Source: Actinomyces timonensis DSM 23838 (GTDB lineage: Bacteria; Actinomycetota; Actinomycetes; Actinomycetales; Actinomycetaceae). Taken from it: a stretch of 64,000 bases of DNA. The stretch is from contig NZ_JH806632.1 of the NCBI RefSeq assembly GCF_000295095.1, forward strand, positions 446,450 to 510,449. The letters are read 5' to 3'. The position numbers and the translations under genes are program-made. Under the pieces are notes generated by a model. It made no database searches and was not told where the DNA came from. It worked only from the letters and a program-made list of their open reading frames with translations. Shown piece by piece: positions 1,506 through 56,299 of the stretch. Within the stretch, counting starts at the first letter, position 1. Each line of letters begins with the position of its first letter.

Positions 1506-1563
1506 GCCGCCCAGCCTATAGGCCGCGGCCGGCCGGTCCGCACCGCTCGATGGTCCGGGCGCT

Positions 1564-2208
1564 TCAGCCGCTCAGCCCGGGGAAGAGCCGGGACAGGCCG
1601 GCTGCCAGCATGCTCACGGCGATGGCGGCCAGGATCATCCCCATGAGCCGGGTCATAATGGTGCGCAGCGTAAGCGACATGTGCCGCCCGATGGTGCTGG
1701 AGAAGTGCAGCACGGCGCCCAGCGCCCCCAGGACCAGGACGAGGGAGAGCACGACGGCGGCGATCCCCTTCGCGCCGCCGGCCTGGGTGAACAGGACGAT
1801 AATGGTGGTGATGGTCCCGGGACCCACGATTATGGGGAAGGTCATGGGGTAGAAGGCGACGTCGTTGGCGGCGGCGTAATCGACGGCGTGGGCCTTCTCC
1901 GTCTTGCTGCCCTCGTGCGCGCTCGAGCCGCGCCCGCTCAGCATGCCCAGCGCGATGGTGAGCAGGACCAGGCCGCCGGCGACCCGGAAGTCGTCGATGC
2001 TGATCCCGAAGAAGCGCAGCAGGGCCGAGCCGCTGACCGCGACCACCGCGCACATGAGGGCGCTGAACAGGGTCGTGCGCCAGGCGGTCCGCCGCTGCTG
2101 GGCCGGCTCCTGGCCGGCTGTCAGGGACAGGAAGAGCGGCAGGTTGACGAAGGGGTTCATAATGGCGAAGAAGGCACCCAGAGCCTTGACGAGCAGGGTG
2201 AGGTCCAT
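1564..2208 (-). CDS. MarC-family integral membrane protein
   Basis: Six-helix inner-membrane protein of the MarC/UPF0056 family, whose function is unknown in spite of the name; the antibiotic-resistance link was withdrawn for E. coli MarC. The family marks are the N-terminal AFFAIMNPFVNLPLFL helix and the central FPMTFPIIVGPGTITT-type motif (here YPMTFPIIVGPGTITT). The ATG at 2208 is preferred over an upstream GTG at 2232, because an AGAAGGGGG ribosome-binding site lies just upstream of 2208 and would otherwise be inside the gene. This gives 214 residues, normal for the family. It is the gene downstream of ptsH but is separated from it by a strong terminator, so probably transcribed on its own. 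Confidence 0.88.
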   Translation of the reverse strand: MDLTLLVKALGAFFAIMNPFVNLPLFLSLTAGQEPAQQRRTAWRTTLFSALMCAVVAVSGSALLRFFGISIDDFRVAGGLVLLTIALGMLSGRGSSAHEGSKTEKAHAVDYAAANDVAFYPMTFPIIVGPGTITTIIVLFTQAGGAKGIAAVVLSLVLVLGALGAVLHFSSTIGRHMSLTLRTIMTRLMGMILAAIAVSMLAAGLSRLFPGLSG

Positions 2209-2236
2209 GGCGCCATTGTGCCCCCTTCTCACGATC

Positions 2237-2269
2237 GTGGGGCGCGCACCACCACGGTGCGCGCCCCAC
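2237..2269 (-). terminator. Hairpin terminator after ptsH
   Basis: A perfect 14-bp GC-rich stem (GTGGGGCGCGCACC, 2237-2250) with a 5-base loop and its complement at 2256-2269 lies 32 bases past the ptsH stop codon and just before the marC ribosome-binding site. There is no long T-run, as is common in actinobacteria. Confidence 0.7.
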
Positions 2270-2301
2270 GCCGGATGAGCGGGCGGTCCGCCCGCGACGC
2301 C

Positions 2302-2568
2302 TCAGGCGTCCAGGTCGGTCTCGAGGAGGGCCTTGAGCTCCGCGAGGGCGCTCTCGGATCCGTCAGCCTCGGAGGCAAGGGTGACGACGTCGCCGTGACC
2401 GGCGCCCAGCGTCATAACGCCCAGGATGGAGGAGGCGTCGACGGGGGCGCCGCCCTCCTTGGCGATGGTGACCGGGACGCCCTTCTCGGCGACGGCCTTG
2501 ACGAAGGTGGCGGCAGGACGGGCGTGCAGCCCGACCTTGGAAGCGATGGTGGCGGTGACCTGTGCCAT
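2302..2568 (-). CDS. ptsH: Phosphocarrier protein HPr
   Basis: Small cytoplasmic phosphocarrier of the sugar phosphotransferase system: it takes phosphate from enzyme I on a histidine and hands it to the EIIA domains. The phosphorylation site H15 sits in VGLHARPAATF, and the regulatory-serine region DASSILGVMTLG (S46/S47) is present. The start at 2568 is chosen because AAGGAGC lies 6 bases upstream and the product is then 88 residues, the normal size. No enzyme I or EII gene lies next to it, so HPr is encoded away from its partners. Confidence 0.95.
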   Translation of the reverse strand: MAQVTATIASKVGLHARPAATFVKAVAEKGVPVTIAKEGGAPVDASSILGVMTLGAGHGDVVTLASEADGSESALAELKALLETDLDA

Positions 2569-2766
2569 GAGCGGCTCCTTATGAGATGAGAGGGGCGGCA
2601 CCTCGAGACCGTATGCGCCCCATGATTGACGCGCACCAGCTGGAGGGCTGGCGTCCTGACTGACAGTACCCGACGGGGCGGCCTCGTCGCAGGCGCATGG
2701 GCGGGCCGATGCGATCCGATCGCGATCCGAACGCGCGCACCGGCTCGTCGCGCGCCGGGGCGCCGC

Positions 2767-3891
2767 TCAGCTCGGGGCGTAGGGGGCCAGGACGATGCCG
2801 ACGCGCTGGAGCTCCTTGACGTCGCTATAGCCGGTCGTGGCCAGGGTGCGGCGCAGGGCGCCCATGATGTTGAGCGTGCCGTCGGCGCGGTCGGAGGGGC
2901 CGTTGAGGATCTCCTCGAGGGTTCCCACGGTGCCCACGTGGGTGCGGTAGCCGCGCGGGAGCCGGGCGTGGTAGGCCTCCGAGCCCCAGTGGTAGCCGCC
3001 GCCCGGCGCCTCGGCGGCGCGGGCCAGGGCGGCGCCGAGCATGACGGCGTCGGCCCCGCAGGCGATGGCCTTGACGACGTCGCCGGAGTTGCCGACCCCG
3101 CCGTCGGCGATGACGTGGACGTAGCGGCCCCCGGACTCGTCCATGTAGTCGCGCCTGGCGGCGGCCACATCGGCGACGGCGGTGGCCATGGGCATGTGGA
3201 GGCCGAGGACCTGCCGGATGGAGGAGGACGCGCCGCCTCCCTGCCCGACGAGCACGCCAGCGGCCCCGGTGCGCATGAGGTGGAGGGCCGCCGTGTAGGT
3301 GGTGACCCCGCCGACGACGACGGGCACGTCGAGCTCGTAGATGAAGCGCTTGAGGTTGAGCGGCTCCTTGGCCCCGGAGACATGCTCGGCCGAGACCGTG
3401 GAGCCCCGGATGATGAGCAGGTCAACGCCGGCCTCGATGACGGCGCGCCAGTGCTCGAGCGTGTGGTTGGGGCTGAGCCTGCCCGCGACGACGGCGCCCG
3501 AGGCCCGCAGCGCCGCGACGCGCTCGGCGATGAGGCCGTGGTCCACGCGACGCGAGTAGACATCCTGCAGGACGCGCGTGGCCTCCTCGGGGGCGGCCGA
3601 GCGGATGCGCGAGTAGGCCTCGGAGGGGTCCTCGTAGCGGGTCCACAGGCCCTCCAGGTCGAGGGCGCCGATGCCGCCCAGGCTGCCGACGGCGATCGCG
3701 CTGCCGGGGCTCATCGCGGAGTCCATGGGGGCGGCCATGACGGGCAGGTCGACGTGGTAGGCGTCGAGCTGCCAGCCGACGCGCACGTCGCGCACGTCCC
3801 GGGTGCGCCGGGAGGGGACGAGGGCGATGTCCTCGAAGGAGTAGGCCTGGTGGGCGCGCTTGGAGCGCCCGATCTCGATCTCACCGCTCAT
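2767..3891 (-). CDS. GuaB3-family IMP dehydrogenase-related protein
   Basis: TIM-barrel protein of the IMP dehydrogenase / GMP reductase superfamily, of the actinobacterial GuaB3 type. It has no CBS domains (374 residues). The flavin/phosphate-type segments IADGGVGNSGDVVKAIACGADAVMLG and MAAPMDSAMS follow the superfamily pattern in position. The loop that holds the catalytic cysteine in true IMPDH (GSICTTR) reads GASSSIR here, with S223 at the Cys position, so normal IMPDH chemistry is unlikely. Its function is therefore unresolved; GMP reductase-like activity has been shown for some bacterial GuaB3 proteins. Full-length guaB lies 2.5 kb away on the same strand, separated by the exonuclease gene on the other strand. 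Confidence 0.85.
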   Translation of the reverse strand: MSGEIEIGRSKRAHQAYSFEDIALVPSRRTRDVRDVRVGWQLDAYHVDLPVMAAPMDSAMSPGSAIAVGSLGGIGALDLEGLWTRYEDPSEAYSRIRSAAPEEATRVLQDVYSRRVDHGLIAERVAALRASGAVVAGRLSPNHTLEHWRAVIEAGVDLLIIRGSTVSAEHVSGAKEPLNLKRFIYELDVPVVVGGVTTYTAALHLMRTGAAGVLVGQGGGASSSIRQVLGLHMPMATAVADVAAARRDYMDESGGRYVHVIADGGVGNSGDVVKAIACGADAVMLGAALARAAEAPGGGYHWGSEAYHARLPRGYRTHVGTVGTLEEILNGPSDRADGTLNIMGALRRTLATTGYSDVKELQRVGIVLAPYAPS

Positions 3892-3973
3892 GGCCCGATC
3901 CTAGACGGGCGCTCCCGGCCACCGCCCGCGGGGCGCCCGGATACGTGTCAGTGCCCAGTGGCATCCTGGGTCC

Positions 3974-4720
3974 ATGAGCGCAGAACCCGCCGCATGGGCC
4001 TCCGGACCACTCCTCGGATTCGACACCGAGACCACGGGCGTCGATCCCACCAGCGAGCGCCTGGTGACCGCCGCACTGGTGGCGCGCGGGCCACGCGGGG
4101 CCGACGGCGCGCGGTCCCAGTCCGTCACCACGTGGCTCGCCGATCCCGGGGTCGAGATCCCGGCGGCGGCCGCCGCCGTCCACGGGATCACCACCGAGCG
4201 CGCGCGGGCGGAGGGGCGCGCCATCGAGGAGGTCCTCGCCGAGGTCTCCGACGTCCTCGTCACCGCGATGGGGGCGGGCACCCCCGTGGTCGCCTTCAAC
4301 GCCTCCTATGACCTCACCCTCCTGGAGGCCGAGCTCTCCCGCCATGGCCTGGCCACCATGCGCGAGCGCCTGGGACGCGAGCTGGGGCCGATCCTCGATC
4401 CGCTGGTCATCGACCGCGCCGTGGACCGCTTCCGCCGGGGCAAGCGGCGCCTGGGGGACATGGCCGCCGTCTACCGCGTTCCGGTGGATGAGGCCCTGCA
4501 CACGGCGGAGGTCGATGTCATCGCCACGCTCGACGTCCTCGAGGCGATCCTCACCGCCCACCCGGCGGTGGCCGCCACCCCCGCCGAGGAACTGGTGGCC
4601 GTGCAGGCGCGCTACCACCGGCAGTGGGCGGAGTCCTTCAACGAGTGGCTGGCGAGGAAGAACCCGGGCCGGCCCGGGGCGCAGACCGCCTGGCCGCTGC
4701 CGGACTCCGCACTGGCCTGA
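3974..4720 (+). CDS. DnaQ-like DEDDh 3'-5' exonuclease domain protein
   Basis: Single-domain exonuclease of the DnaQ/ribonuclease T superfamily, acting on nucleic-acid 3' ends with two metal ions. All DEDDh residues are visible: D17 and E19 in FDTETTG, D113 in FNASYDLTLL, then H176 and D181 in LHTAEVDV. The product is 248 residues with no polymerase-epsilon-like extra domains; the last 50 residues, after the core, are helical and basic (ARYHRQWAESFNEWLARK). It is divergent from guaB3 and convergent with guaB. Whether it proofreads DNA polymerase III or degrades RNA or DNA by itself cannot be read from the sequence. Confidence 0.88.
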   Translation: MSAEPAAWASGPLLGFDTETTGVDPTSERLVTAALVARGPRGADGARSQSVTTWLADPGVEIPAAAAAVHGITTERARAEGRAIEEVLAEVSDVLVTAMGAGTPVVAFNASYDLTLLEAELSRHGLATMRERLGRELGPILDPLVIDRAVDRFRRGKRRLGDMAAVYRVPVDEALHTAEVDVIATLDVLEAILTAHPAVAATPAEELVAVQARYHRQWAESFNEWLARKNPGRPGAQTAWPLPDSALA

Positions 4721-4833
4721 GAGCCGCCGCCAGCCCGTGCGAGCGGGCGGGCGCGAGTGGCGGCGGGGCGCTGGCGCGCTGGCCGGCCAGGCGCCGCCGC
4801 CCCAGCGTCCCAGGGCCACGCCGCTCAGTCGCC

Positions 4834-6860
<2,027 letters not shown>

Positions 6861-9488: not shown

Positions 9489-9575
9489 TCGCCGAAACCG
9501 GGCGAACAGCACGGCGAAACCGGGCGGTTTTCCACAGATCCGAATCTCGCCGTGCTGTTCGCCCGGTCTCGTTCA
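9489..9575. repeat. Dispersed palindromic repeat, near-complete copy (R1)
   Basis: Two arms built on the core ACCGGGCGAACAGCACGG form a perfect 21-bp inverted repeat (9497-9517 and 9547-9567). The interior contains a truncated second unit followed by TTTTCCACA (9528-9536). It is intergenic between two convergent genes. The same structure recurs at 19102-19187 and its parts elsewhere in the window. Confidence 0.85.
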
Positions 9576-19101: not shown

Positions 19102-19187
19102 AACCGAGACCGGGCGAACAGCACGGCGAAACCGGGCGGTTTTCCACAGATCAGAATCTCGCCGTGCTGATCGCCCGGTCTCGCATA
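19102..19187. repeat. Dispersed palindromic repeat, near-complete copy (R2)
   Basis: Same structure as the copy at 9489-9575. The arms at 19109-19129 and 19159-19179 differ by one base, the interior has TTTTCCACA (19140-19148), and the element is flanked by TTATAA on one side and ATATAGGGG on the other. It is intergenic between the nnr gene and alr, both on the minus strand. Confidence 0.85.
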
Positions 19188-43754: not shown

Positions 43755-43814
43755 CGAGACCGGGCGAACAGCACCGCGAGACCGGGCGAGCAGCACGGCG
43801 AGGCCGGTTCGGGC
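43755..43814 (+). repeat. Dispersed repeat, two tandem units (R3)
   Basis: Two 22-bp units with core ACCGGGCGAACAGCACCG and ACCGGGCGAGCAGCACGG (43759-43780, 43781-43802) follow each other directly, then a divergent GCCGGTTCGGG. There is no inverted partner nearby. Confidence 0.85.
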
Positions 43815-48258: not shown

Positions 48259-48585
48259 AGGGTGTTCTCCTTCGTCGAGCCGGTTCTCGGGTCCCCCCGA
48301 GCCTTGCCGAACGTTCTTGGTGTTCTTGCGCGCTGCTCCCCCGGCCCGGAGGCAGGAGGAGTCCACGAAGCGTGGGTCCCATCAGACACAGGCGCAGGAG
48401 CGCGGGGTCTCTGATGGGCGCGCCGAGGGCGCACGCAACTGTCACAGCCTAGTGCAGCGCCGAAGGCCCCCGATACCAGAGGCCCCCTCCCACCCCTGTG
48501 CCTTTCCTCACCAGCCTCCCGCCGCTCTCCCCCAACCCGCCCCCGCCTGTCCCCCGCCTGTCCCCCGCGCCATTCATCGCCCGTC
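48259..48585. other. Non-coding gap upstream of rplN
   Basis: No gene is seen. It should hold the spc-operon promoter and a leader of unknown length. TAGGCT on the minus strand near 48453 is a possible -10 box without a convincing -35. A C-rich, CCCGCCTGT-type tandem stretch lies at about 48535-48570. Confidence 0.5.
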
Positions 48586-48640
48586 CTTATATCCGAGACC
48601 GGGCGAACAGCACGGCGAAACCGGGCGGTTTTCCACAGAT
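48586..48640 (+). repeat. Dispersed repeat, left half-element (R4)
   Basis: Same sequence as the left arm plus interior of the complete copies (core at 48598-48618, then the interior with TTTTCCACA at 48629-48637), but the right arm does not follow. The first 34 bases (48594-48627) are an exact inverted repeat of 49831-49864, on the far side of the nuclease-like gene. Confidence 0.85.
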
Positions 48641-49864
48641 TCTCCAGCCCTGTTCCATCGCGCTGCTCCGGCAGTGACCCTTGATACATGTACGACCCCC
48701 ATGACACCCCAGCTGCTCCCCATCCCACGCACCGCGCATCAACTGCCGCTCATTCCCATCACGACGTCGCCTCCGGCGCCGTCAAACCGCTTCGCCGAGG
48801 AAGCGTCCTGGTTGTCCACCCCGATGAGCCCTTCTGGGAAACCGCCTCACGCGCCCGGGCGAAGATCCTGTCAATATTCGAGGCAGAGCGCTTGGAGGGC
48901 ACCGTCTGCCTGGAATCCGCCGCCAGACTTCATGGCGCGCGGGTCATGGCGCAGAGCCAGTCCGTGGACATCATCACCTCTTGGAAACCGAACGGCCTCA
49001 AACGGAGGCCCTGTCCTCGTCGCCCAGCCCGCGTCCCGTCCCGCGACGCCTCCCCCGCCGAGCGCCGCCGCCTCCTCGAGGCCAGGCCGATCGTGCGTCA
49101 CCACATGCCACTGGCCGCGGGCGACGTCGTCGACCATGACGGGCTGCGCGTCACCAGTCCGGAGCGGACGATTCTCGACTGCGCGCGCTTCCTTCAGCCC
49201 GACCGCGCCCTCGCCGTCGTCGATTCCCTCTTCGCCGTCGTCGTGGGCGCGGGCGATCACCCGTGGGACCACCGGCGCCGGATCGAGGCGGCCTGCGCGG
49301 AGCTGCGCCGCCGACTCCTCGCGCGACTGGAGGAATGGGCTGGTCAGCGCGGCTACCGGCGCGCTCAGGCGGTTCTCCTCGCAGCGACGGCCATGAGCCA
49401 GTCCGTCTGGGAGTCCGAGGCCCGGCGGCTCTGCCTAGCCTCTGGGATCACTCCCCCGCAGGTGCAGGTACCCGTGCGCGGGGCCGACGGCGGCGTGTAC
49501 TTCGCGGATCTCGGCTGGCTGCTCGTCCGCCTTCTCCTGGAGGTCGACGGCGAGGTCAAGCTCGCGGTGGATCCCGACGGCGAGATGCGGCGTCGGATCG
49601 CCCGGGAGGAGGCGATCCGCGAGGCCGGCTTCGATGTTCTTCGCCTAACGCCCGAGGATCTGAGAGACTCTCGCGCGGCGGTGCGCCGAATCTGGGACGC
49701 GCTGCCGCCGTCGGCACGGGACGCCAGTCCGATCACAGCACTGCTGACGACTCACGAGCGCGACTCCGGAGGGTTACGGCCGTCGGCGTGAGCCCGCAGC
49801 ACCCTCCGCTGCGAATCTCGCCGTGCTGTTCGCCCGGTTTCGCCGTGCTGTTCGCCCGGTCTCG
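48594..49864. mobile_element. Candidate cassette: nuclease-like gene between 34-bp inverted repeats
   Basis: Perfect 34-bp inverted repeats made of the dispersed-repeat units bound 1.27 kb carrying one gene on the plus strand, against the minus-strand ribosomal operons. The outer flanks are also alike (CGTCCTT a few bases outside both ends). No transposase is present and no target duplication is clear, so mobility is an inference. Confidence 0.35.
48688..49791 (+). CDS. DUF559/AbiEi-like protein with putative PD-(D/E)xK nuclease domain
   Basis: 367 residues lying between the S10 and spc operons, in opposite orientation. The middle (about 70-185) resembles the AbiEi-type antitoxin fold seen in actinobacterial DUF559 proteins (LESAARLHGARVM, MPLAAGDVVDHDGLRVTSPE, RTILDCARFL). 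The C-terminal part (about 240-335) matches DUF559, a Vsr-like endonuclease fold: ESEARRLCLASG, YFADLGWLLVRLLLEVDGEVK (E285, D287, K291) and EAIREAGFDVLRLTPEDL. The first 45 residues are low-complexity. The start at 48688 has no good ribosome-binding site. The biological role of this family is unknown; a defence or toxin-antitoxin role is inference. It is framed by inverted repeats R4 and R5. Confidence 0.68.
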   Translation: MYDPHDTPAAPHPTHRASTAAHSHHDVASGAVKPLRRGSVLVVHPDEPFWETASRARAKILSIFEAERLEGTVCLESAARLHGARVMAQSQSVDIITSWKPNGLKRRPCPRRPARVPSRDASPAERRRLLEARPIVRHHMPLAAGDVVDHDGLRVTSPERTILDCARFLQPDRALAVVDSLFAVVVGAGDHPWDHRRRIEAACAELRRRLLARLEEWAGQRGYRRAQAVLLAATAMSQSVWESEARRLCLASGITPPQVQVPVRGADGGVYFADLGWLLVRLLLEVDGEVKLAVDPDGEMRRRIAREEAIREAGFDVLRLTPEDLRDSRAAVRRIWDALPPSARDASPITALLTTHERDSGGLRPSA

Positions 49865-49872
49865 GTGAGAAA
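49811..49872 (-). repeat. Dispersed repeat, right half with two tandem units (R5)
   Basis: Two units in minus orientation (49818-49838 and 49840-49860) followed by CTCG. It is the inverted partner of R4, with the intervening gene between them. Confidence 0.85.
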
Positions 49873-55621: not shown

Positions 55622-55676
55622 CGAGACCGGGCGATCAGCACGGCGAAACCGGGCGATCAGCACGGCGAGACCGGTT
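55622..55676 (+). repeat. Dispersed repeat, two tandem units (R6)
   Basis: Two units of the ACCGGGCGATCAGCACGG form (55626-55647 and 55648-55669; GATC replaces GAAC), followed by ACCGGTTCGGG as after R3. It is the left, inverted partner of R7 across the small peptide gene. Confidence 0.85.
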
Positions 55677-55701
55677 CGGGGTCGGCTCGAGGGGGCTCGC
55701 G

Positions 55702-55807
55702 GAGCACCGTGAGGTGCGTCCTGCACCGGTGGTTGCGCGGAGCACCTTCGGCTGCGTTCCCACCGCACCCCACGGTGCTCGAGGCAACCACCGGTGCAGG
55801 ACGCACC
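55702..55807. repeat. Interleaved inverted repeats upstream of the small peptide gene
   Basis: A perfect 24-bp inverted repeat (55713-55736 with 55784-55807; core TGCGTCCTGCACCGGTGG) has a 47-base loop. A second one, GAGCACCGTG (55702-55711) with CACGGTGCTC (55771-55780), is interleaved with it, so the two stems cannot both form in simple nested fashion. Confidence 0.85.
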
Positions 55808-55943
55808 CCACGAGGCCCATGACCAGGCCCCCGATGGCGTCACCTCCGCCGCCTACGATGGTGCCGCCTTCTCCGGCACCTCCTCCCGGAACACGTCCGT
55901 GTCCTTGCCGGGGAAGGAGGCAGCCAGGGAGGAGGTGAGGGCC

Positions 55944-56087
55944 GTGACCCGTCCGAAAGGCCGGCACGCCAAAGTCCACGAGGACAAGGAAACGGCCCGG
56001 CAGGTGAGCGAAATACTTAACTCCATCGCTCGCCTGATCCGAGCCGTCGGTGTCCTTGTGGATGCCCTCGGTCGATGGATCAACTGA
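55944..56087 (+). CDS. Small uncharacterised peptide with amphipathic C-terminal helix
   Basis: A 47-residue product starting at a GTG (VTRPKGRHAKVHEDK) with a very strong GGGAGGAGG site about 9 bases upstream. The first half is charged and basic; the second half (SEILNSIARLIRAVGVLVDA, then LGRWIN) would form an amphipathic or membrane-seeking helix with a tryptophan near the end. It is followed 15 bases later by a perfect terminator hairpin, which supports real expression. The frame is open upstream to 55794. I recognise no family. A membrane-active or signalling peptide, or a small toxin, are guesses. Confidence 0.5.
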   Translation: MTRPKGRHAKVHEDKETARQVSEILNSIARLIRAVGVLVDALGRWIN

Positions 56088-56102
56088 GCCATCGGCCTCG
56101 GA

Positions 56103-56130
56103 GACCCATCCGGTAGCCGCCGGATGGGTC
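56103..56130 (+). terminator. Hairpin terminator after the small peptide gene
   Basis: A perfect 11-bp stem (GACCCATCCGG, 56103-56113, with 56120-56130; loop TAGCCG) lies 15 bases past the stop codon, followed by CCCACCATTAT. Confidence 0.75.
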
Positions 56131-56250
56131 CCCACCATTATGGGCCCCGACGCCGCGGCTGTCCACGACAGGTGGCGAGGCGCCCGGCCTGGTAATCGCA
56201 TCAGGACATCGGAGACGTTCACGCGCATCCCAGGCGACCCGATCGATGTA

Positions 56251-56299
56251 TCTCGCCGTGCTGTTCGCCCGGTTTCGCCGTGCTGTTCGCCCGGTCTCG
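56251..56299 (-). repeat. Dispersed repeat, two tandem units (R7)
   Basis: Two units in minus orientation ending in CTCG, one base before the srtC stop codon. It is the inverted partner of R6, and the same two-unit form as R5. Confidence 0.85.

Follow-up and report, generated by a model that had tools for sequence, protein, structure and literature searches.

The locus lies in a 64,000-nucleotide stretch of the Actinomyces timonensis DSM 23838 genome (the window), in which the minus-strand ribosomal protein genes rplN and rpsQ flank a single plus-strand open reading frame of 367 amino acids (48688..49791), here called the cargo gene. It is enclosed by two arms, 48593-48627 and 49831-49865, that are 100% complementary over 35 bp with 1203 nt in between; the exact inverted repeat around one plus-strand gene that was originally predicted is thereby confirmed, its true length being 35 bp and not 34. 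The end unit is 22 bp long, GAGACCGGGCGAACAGCACGGC, and occurs once at the left, where it is followed by GAAACCGGGCGGTTTTCCACAGAT, and twice at the right. The left half (48595..48641, plus strand) is made of this one unit and then GAAACCGGGCGGTTTTCCACAGATT, and the right half (49816..49864, minus strand) of two units in inverted orientation, while a C-rich, G-poor tract outside the left half (48570..48594, plus strand) is likely, though not certain, to be part of the element. Motifs of the type TTTTCCACAG or TTATCCACAG, which we take to resemble a DnaA box, are frequent at the inner edges of arrays and in the centres of cargo-free elements, for example at 48617-48641 of the window and at C1:242871, L061, and L116 of the same genome; at the edge of the cargo gene the motif is conserved in four species.

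The elements occur in three forms, namely facing arrays of units with little between them (solo), arrays around a gene (filled), and a lone array (single). Both of the cargo-free palindromes that had been predicted are present as solos, at 9489..9575 and 19102..19187, and they are built from the same 22-bp unit as the cargo ends. The same unit also builds a single half of two units (about 43756..43805, plus strand) and a second filled pair with two units on either side (about 55623..56297, C1:502077; about 0.6 kb inside without a clear gene), both of which are additional to the elements named before. The proposal that the cargo ends are the halves of a solo holds for the left end as far as TTTTCCACAGAT and also for the right end, except that the latter has one additional 22-bp unit. 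Allowing up to 3 mismatches, a 19-mer of the cargo end is matched 13 times in the window, where shuffled sequence gives 0.10 on average; Rfam, at gathering scores, yielded no family there. Inside several fillings the arrays are adjoined by another repeat, with abundant GCACC/GGTGC half-palindromes (L338 and L339, which represent the slot matching C1:373561; L064; 55.6 kb of the window; L094), and stretches related to it are common to C1:303304, C1:502077, and C1:1322863.

The claim of a DUF559-like C-terminus in the cargo protein is weak but plausible, as the Pfam matches to DUF559 (E = 0.039) and AbiEi_1 (E = 0.00067) both stay under the curated cut-offs. All 11 aligned homologues share D274, E285, G288, and K291, and D287 is nearly invariant; at E ≤ 0.01 these 11 homologues include two matches to DUF559, one to AbiEi_1, and one to REase_MTES_1575. 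PADLOC gave weak AbiEi matches for the cargo protein, as well as PDC-S01 for an ATPase encoded in another filling, and NCBIfam gave no match for four proteins including the cargo. The weak matches place an AbiEi-like part at the N-terminus and a DUF559/REase-like part at the C-terminus.

In the complete genome to which the window belongs (G000, 2.93 Mb), the 19-mer was found 192 times with no more than 3 mismatches, and its reversed control twice. The elements are arrays of 22-24 bp units that consist of a core, CGAGAYCGG, and a lineage-specific tail. The inventory comprises 30 solo, 12 filled, and 31 single elements, i.e., 73 elements in 62 sources; it represents the G000 spelling at up to 2 mismatches, with older spellings (21 hits) mostly outside it, C1:356178 entered as single though its second arm has 3 mismatches, and C1:560258, which is near a solo, not entered as filled. 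Half-ends that neighbour each other within 2.2 kb, solo arms excluded, were oriented +/- (left end, then right) in 12 of 12 cases, where 20000 random placements gave 0.55 on average and never more than 6. In the sequence examined from 11 other genomes there were 16 +/-, 3 -/+, and no same-strand pairs within 3 kb, a set that includes some identical slots of related species. Two near-identical single double-unit ends lie 5.6 kb apart in L118 (C3:233246 and C3:238869), both after a convergent gene and adjoining nearly the same hairpin-like sequence.

The solos are placed at gene ends. With gene positions taken from a codon-usage script and not from annotation, none of the 30 solos lies inside a called gene, and 13 are in convergent, 15 in tandem, and 2 in divergent gaps, the corresponding numbers for all gaps of at least 40 bp in the same sources being 55, 140, and 49. 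A facing stop codon is present for 28 solos; the nearest one is 3-76 nt away from the solo edge, and no more than 43 nt away in 26 of the 28. The outer ends of the arrays (n = 115) contain 54% C and 14% G, versus 39% C and 37% G after 150 control stop codons. Predicted RNA folds of the solos at 9489-9575 (-78.8 kcal/mol, z -6.9) and 19102-19187 (-68.1 kcal/mol, z -9.4) are very stable, and position and fold together give these solos the stable hairpin right after a stop codon that is expected of a two-way terminator; the two halves at the window cargo fold at z -2.1 and -1.8 only. Position, predicted fold, and C-rich outer tract of the solos would fit a hairpin that serves as a 3' end in both directions. 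At C3:271032, a solo in G000 stands where the congener G033 has a small native hairpin. The original prediction had named ordinary terminators found after most genes as a refuting case; this did not hold, with 73 elements in 2.9 Mb, though the solos do stand at terminator positions.

The content of the filled elements is diverse. Pfam analysis of nine filling proteins from eight places revealed DUF6318, AAA_14/DUF4143, a hexapeptide transferase, DUF364, a flavodoxin, a transglycosylase with G5, an NADH:flavin oxidoreductase, a metal-sensitive repressor (at an ambiguous place, C1:559-560 kb), and one protein without family. A 2-kb stretch with two genes, one of them a DUF6318 gene, is found at C1:33 kb, C1:656 kb, C3:158 kb, and C2:387 kb, and partly at C2:317 kb. 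These copies share about 80-93% identity, and their homology ends at CGAGAC arrays with unrelated flanks outside; the number of units varies, and one end of the C2:387 kb copy is the core only. The fetched stretches of G033 hold one copy of this filling, flanked by the left flanks of the G000 copies at C1:656 kb and C3:158 kb, an arrangement that can be read as a rearrangement by recombination between copies. A 4.3-kb bracket from a solo to a double end (L077:2576-6969) contains a broken ISL3-like transposase gene with its own terminal repeats, next to other reading frames.

Searches of same-genus genomes demonstrated that the family is spread across the genus, though patchily. The skeleton GARACCGGKCGA-N8-12-GARACCGG has 114 hits in G000, 136 in G004, 108 in G036, 182 in G033, 8 in G005, and 2 in G061, and none in the other 43 of the 49 same-genus genomes. 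The core pattern GAGAYCGG-N12-18-GARAYCGG reaches at least 12 hits in 20 of the 49 (own genome included), with a maximum of 623, and the reversed-pattern control gave 0 hits except for 3 in G018; G063 has 337 core-pattern hits, none of which is in its fetched 60 kb. The same core appears in other spellings, such as CGAGATCGGGACATATGACACCTC in G020 and CGAGACCGGGACATCGATACCAC in G013, with tails that differ by lineage. A species-private family, as could be supposed from the 0 to 4 hits of the G000 spelling in each of 36 congeners, was rejected, since the skeleton and core patterns limit what is species-private to the spelling. A viral collection held 2 contigs with the GAGACCGG skeleton and none with the GAGATCGGGACA unit, the latter belonging to a clade that includes G016 and G020, and in a wider contig scan the contigs with at least 2 matches were, among the matches listed, all Actinomyces.

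Comparison of unit tails showed that these differ between species at shared sites and are alike within a genome. When units from one slot and side were compared between G000 and a relative, their 14-nt tails matched at 6.64 of 14 positions, and 0 of 55 were identical. Tails from different slots of one genome agree at 13.06 of 14 positions in G000, a figure that is raised by the choice of the G000 units by spelling, and at 11.71 in G033, 10.98 in G036, and 11.14 in G004. In G004 the arms of one solo resemble each other: they are identical in 11 of 16 solos and agree at 28.7 of 30 positions within a solo versus 25.7 between solos, a value reached in 0 of 20000 permutations (all 16 pairs within 120 bp among the matches listed; the same outcome was obtained for a 12-solo subset). 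A similar test gave no significance in G033 (1375 of 10000 permutations) and G036 (1475 of 10000), and it fails in G016 (9459 of 10000); in G000, agreement within solos (12.73) is no higher than between them (12.94), all units being alike.

Positions of the elements are inherited between close species. For 21 of the 73 elements in G000, both flanks were located in the fetched 430 kb of G033; an element is present at 18 of these sites and missing at 3. Some sites are less certain, because a gap of hundreds of bases separates the flank match from the element (C1:367801 in G004 and G033; C3:72179, C3:80613, and C1:357625 in G036). Within the window, the solo at 9489..9575 has a same-place solo in G036 with both arms changed and a 1482-bp interval without core in G033; the solo at 19102..19187 has same-place solos in G036 and G033, again with both arms changed; and the single half at 43756..43805 is also a single half in G004, G033, and G036 (1 to 3 intact cores). 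For the second filled pair, no core was present in the mapped intervals of G033, G036, and G025.

Among the filled slots, six have a mapped counterpart in one relative or more, and two of these differ in state or cargo. C1:303304 is filled in G000 (1.7 kb, with the AAA_14/DUF4143 ATPase gene) and solo in G033 (137 bp) and G036 (129 bp), with the same neighbours. C1:373561 is filled alike in G000 and G004 (by eye, a small secreted protein), solo in G016, and represented by its left half only in G036; in G020 it is filled with a gene that by eye is glycosyltransferase-like, and in G033 it holds other, broken content that is 67% like the ISL3 transposase gene of L077. These two contrasts establish that one and the same slot can be solo or filled, as was originally supposed; the other four mapped filled slots, that of the window cargo among them, display no such contrast. 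The window cargo (C1:495049) and C3:136589 are filled in all four species, and C3:10063 in G000 and G033. The gene in C3:136589 has the same neighbours in G025, G016, and G020 as well, and in G025, which has 1 core-pattern hit genome-wide, it is a resident gene with no core in the interval; the halves can therefore end up around a gene that never moved, which counts against gene capture as a general explanation of the filled form.

The junction of the window cargo was compared across the genus, with 39 congeners matched for rplN and 29 rplN loci fetched. Three of the 29 have the cargo gene there, 22 have a nearby rpsQ but lack the gene, and 4 show neither in the stretch; the gene is thus not fixed at this junction in all relatives, whereas its fixation there without repeats at the edges had been set out beforehand as a finding that would speak against a cassette. 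In the three species with the gene (G036, G033, and G004) the orthologue is 72-77% identical and stands between rplN and rpsQ, with halves at both edges in the same positions, a common inner end GGTTTTCCACAGATT, and unit tails that are all different. Since the gene and both ends sit at the same junction in three relatives, the cargo was not recently captured; it is an old case, bracketed in four species. None of the 22 gene-free junctions has an array in the rplN-rpsQ interval, one lone core being present in L146, so that gene and arrays are missing together outside the clade; this includes G013, G016, G020, and G028, which are array-free here although family-rich elsewhere. The interval in gene-free congeners ranges from 332 to more than 1300 bp, and its length therefore varies without arrays as well. 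The outer C-rich tract is missing from the gene-free junction of G017, G008 and G016 have short C-rich bits only, and G020 has a C-rich stretch without any array. The variable length of the array-free interval and the C-rich stretch of G020 speak against a tidy cassette insertion. By eye, other reading frames without arrays seem to occupy the rpsQ-rplN interval in G009 (L130, 1158 bp) and G062 (L134, 860 bp).

The 34-bp repeats around the cargo are, with a little better than an even chance, the left and right halves of an intergenic palindrome of REPIN-like type that occupies inherited slots, undergoes rewriting of its tails, and exchanges genes through recombination between arrays. The element is composed of arrays of 22-24 bp units, usually C-rich on the outside and mostly located just past stop codons in the position of a terminator, and the solos may act as strong two-way 3' end hairpins. 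The concerted rewriting of tails points to copying between elements, by which the species spelling would be kept. Arrays of one genome are nearly identical and recombination between them may therefore exchange genes: a gene with its two arrays would replace a solo, drop out, or be swapped, and homologous recombination between arrays is the simplest candidate pathway. That the elements are mobile is inferred. A stronger form, in which solos at gene ends are empty sockets, made compatible by the copied unit spelling, into which array-enclosed genes are inserted, swapped, and lost, is a tentative suggestion with the balance against it.

Other explanations account for part of these observations. 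An in-trans transposase that recognises multi-unit ends and moves a gene together with its ends, with solos as cargo-free miniature elements, i.e., a system of mobile insertion cassettes, would agree with ends formed by inverted arrays of 22-bp units, with one filling at four sites whose homology ends at the arrays, and with the joint absence of cargo and ends from all 22 junctions without the gene. Repeated 22-bp binding sites are also a property of the ends of Tn7 and Mu. We nevertheless consider this unlikely, since no target duplication was detected in 42 elements (best real score 0.315 versus shuffled maxima of 0.30-0.36), none of the nine filling proteins scanned is a transposase, and species with different unit tails share sites. 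The L077 bracket supplied a tenth protein, whose matches to ISL3 stay under the cut-offs, and the element it belongs to has its own 35-nt terminal repeats inside the bracket. Classical transposition was rejected for the same 42 elements, as direct repeats were not above shuffled controls, and ISL3 was rejected as the mover because the ends of the L077 copy itself lie within the bracket.

Plain dispersed two-way terminators, with filled pairs representing genes that by chance came to lie between two half elements, would explain why the solos follow stop codons so closely, why both folded solos are very stable, and why the filling of C3:136589 is a resident gene; this is a distinctly unlikely account in view of the single orientation of all 12 close pairs, the occurrence of the same slot as solo and filled in different species, and the weak folding of the halves at the window cargo. 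By analogy with the Neisseriaceae, the units might serve in DNA uptake, as a signal that has species dialects, is enriched through transformation, and often stands as inverted pairs at terminators; the species spellings, the common core, and the inverted pairs at gene ends can be adduced for this. It seems highly improbable, as there are 192 units here versus the 1543 to 5918 given in the accessible part of PMC3630211, the unit is 22 bp and stands in arrays, and no solo was found inside a called gene. Movement of the element by its own nuclease-like cargo, as the original prediction had considered, draws on the conserved D...E-x-D...K pattern of the cargo and has a practically negligible chance: congeners almost devoid of the repeats carry several copies of the gene family (G008 has 6 matches to the gene and 1 core-pattern hit), and the nine other filling proteins scanned belong to other families or to none. 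On these grounds the cargo gene is probably not the mover.

Several known systems share features with the REPIN-like element favoured here. Integron cassettes are single genes beside palindromic attC sites that are alike within a genome, and the Actinomyces elements likewise have single genes adjoining a palindromic site alike within the genome; they differ in layout, for the slots are single and dispersed and a bracketed gene has two inverted arrays at its ends, where an integron cassette has one attC and is lined up with others at attI. Mobile insertion cassettes carry a passenger gene between inverted ends without a transposase, which is also the constitution of the fillings scanned, whereas the Actinomyces elements show no target duplication in the 42 cases compared, have a solo form in the same slot, and have species-differing tails at shared sites. 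ISL3 insertion sequences are represented by remnants inside two brackets (L077 and the G033 content of C1:373561), with the difference that the terminal repeats of the L077 copy are inside its bracket. The nearest known kind is that of the REP/REPIN palindromes, which in the available text of PMC3116915 and PMC3733652 are high-copy, extragenic, hairpin-forming inverted pairs near the 3' ends of convergent and tandem genes. The 192 unit hits, the hairpins of both folded solos, and the placement of all 30 solos outside called genes agree with this description, and according to a suggestion in PMC3116915, DNA inserted into REPINs may give rise to single REPs. The Actinomyces element differs by its tandem 22-24 bp units, its fixed CGAGAYCGG core, and the bracketing of a gene by 12 of 73 elements. 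It is not filed as a REP because its outer edges read CGAGAC and do not carry the GTAG or CGTC tag that the accessible text of PMC3733652 gives for REPs. No Y1 (RAYT) match was found among 10 proteins scanned. DNA uptake sequences of the Neisseriaceae, as far as the available part of PMC3630211 describes them, also occur in species dialects of a core and as inverted pairs suggestive of terminators, and the Actinomyces units differ by being longer, arranged in arrays, far fewer in number, and associated with bracketed genes. No description of such elements in Actinomyces was found in the open-licence literature.

Concerted rewriting at inherited positions requires an active copying process, and the solo and filled states of one slot offer a direct test of the entry and exit of single genes in bacterial chromosomes outside integrons and transposons. 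If the doubtful reading of solos as sockets were true, the system would resemble a dispersed integron without cassette arrays or a dedicated integrase, and the spelling dialect would limit gene exchange between species. The states of the slots can moreover serve as a marker for gene turnover in Actinomyces.
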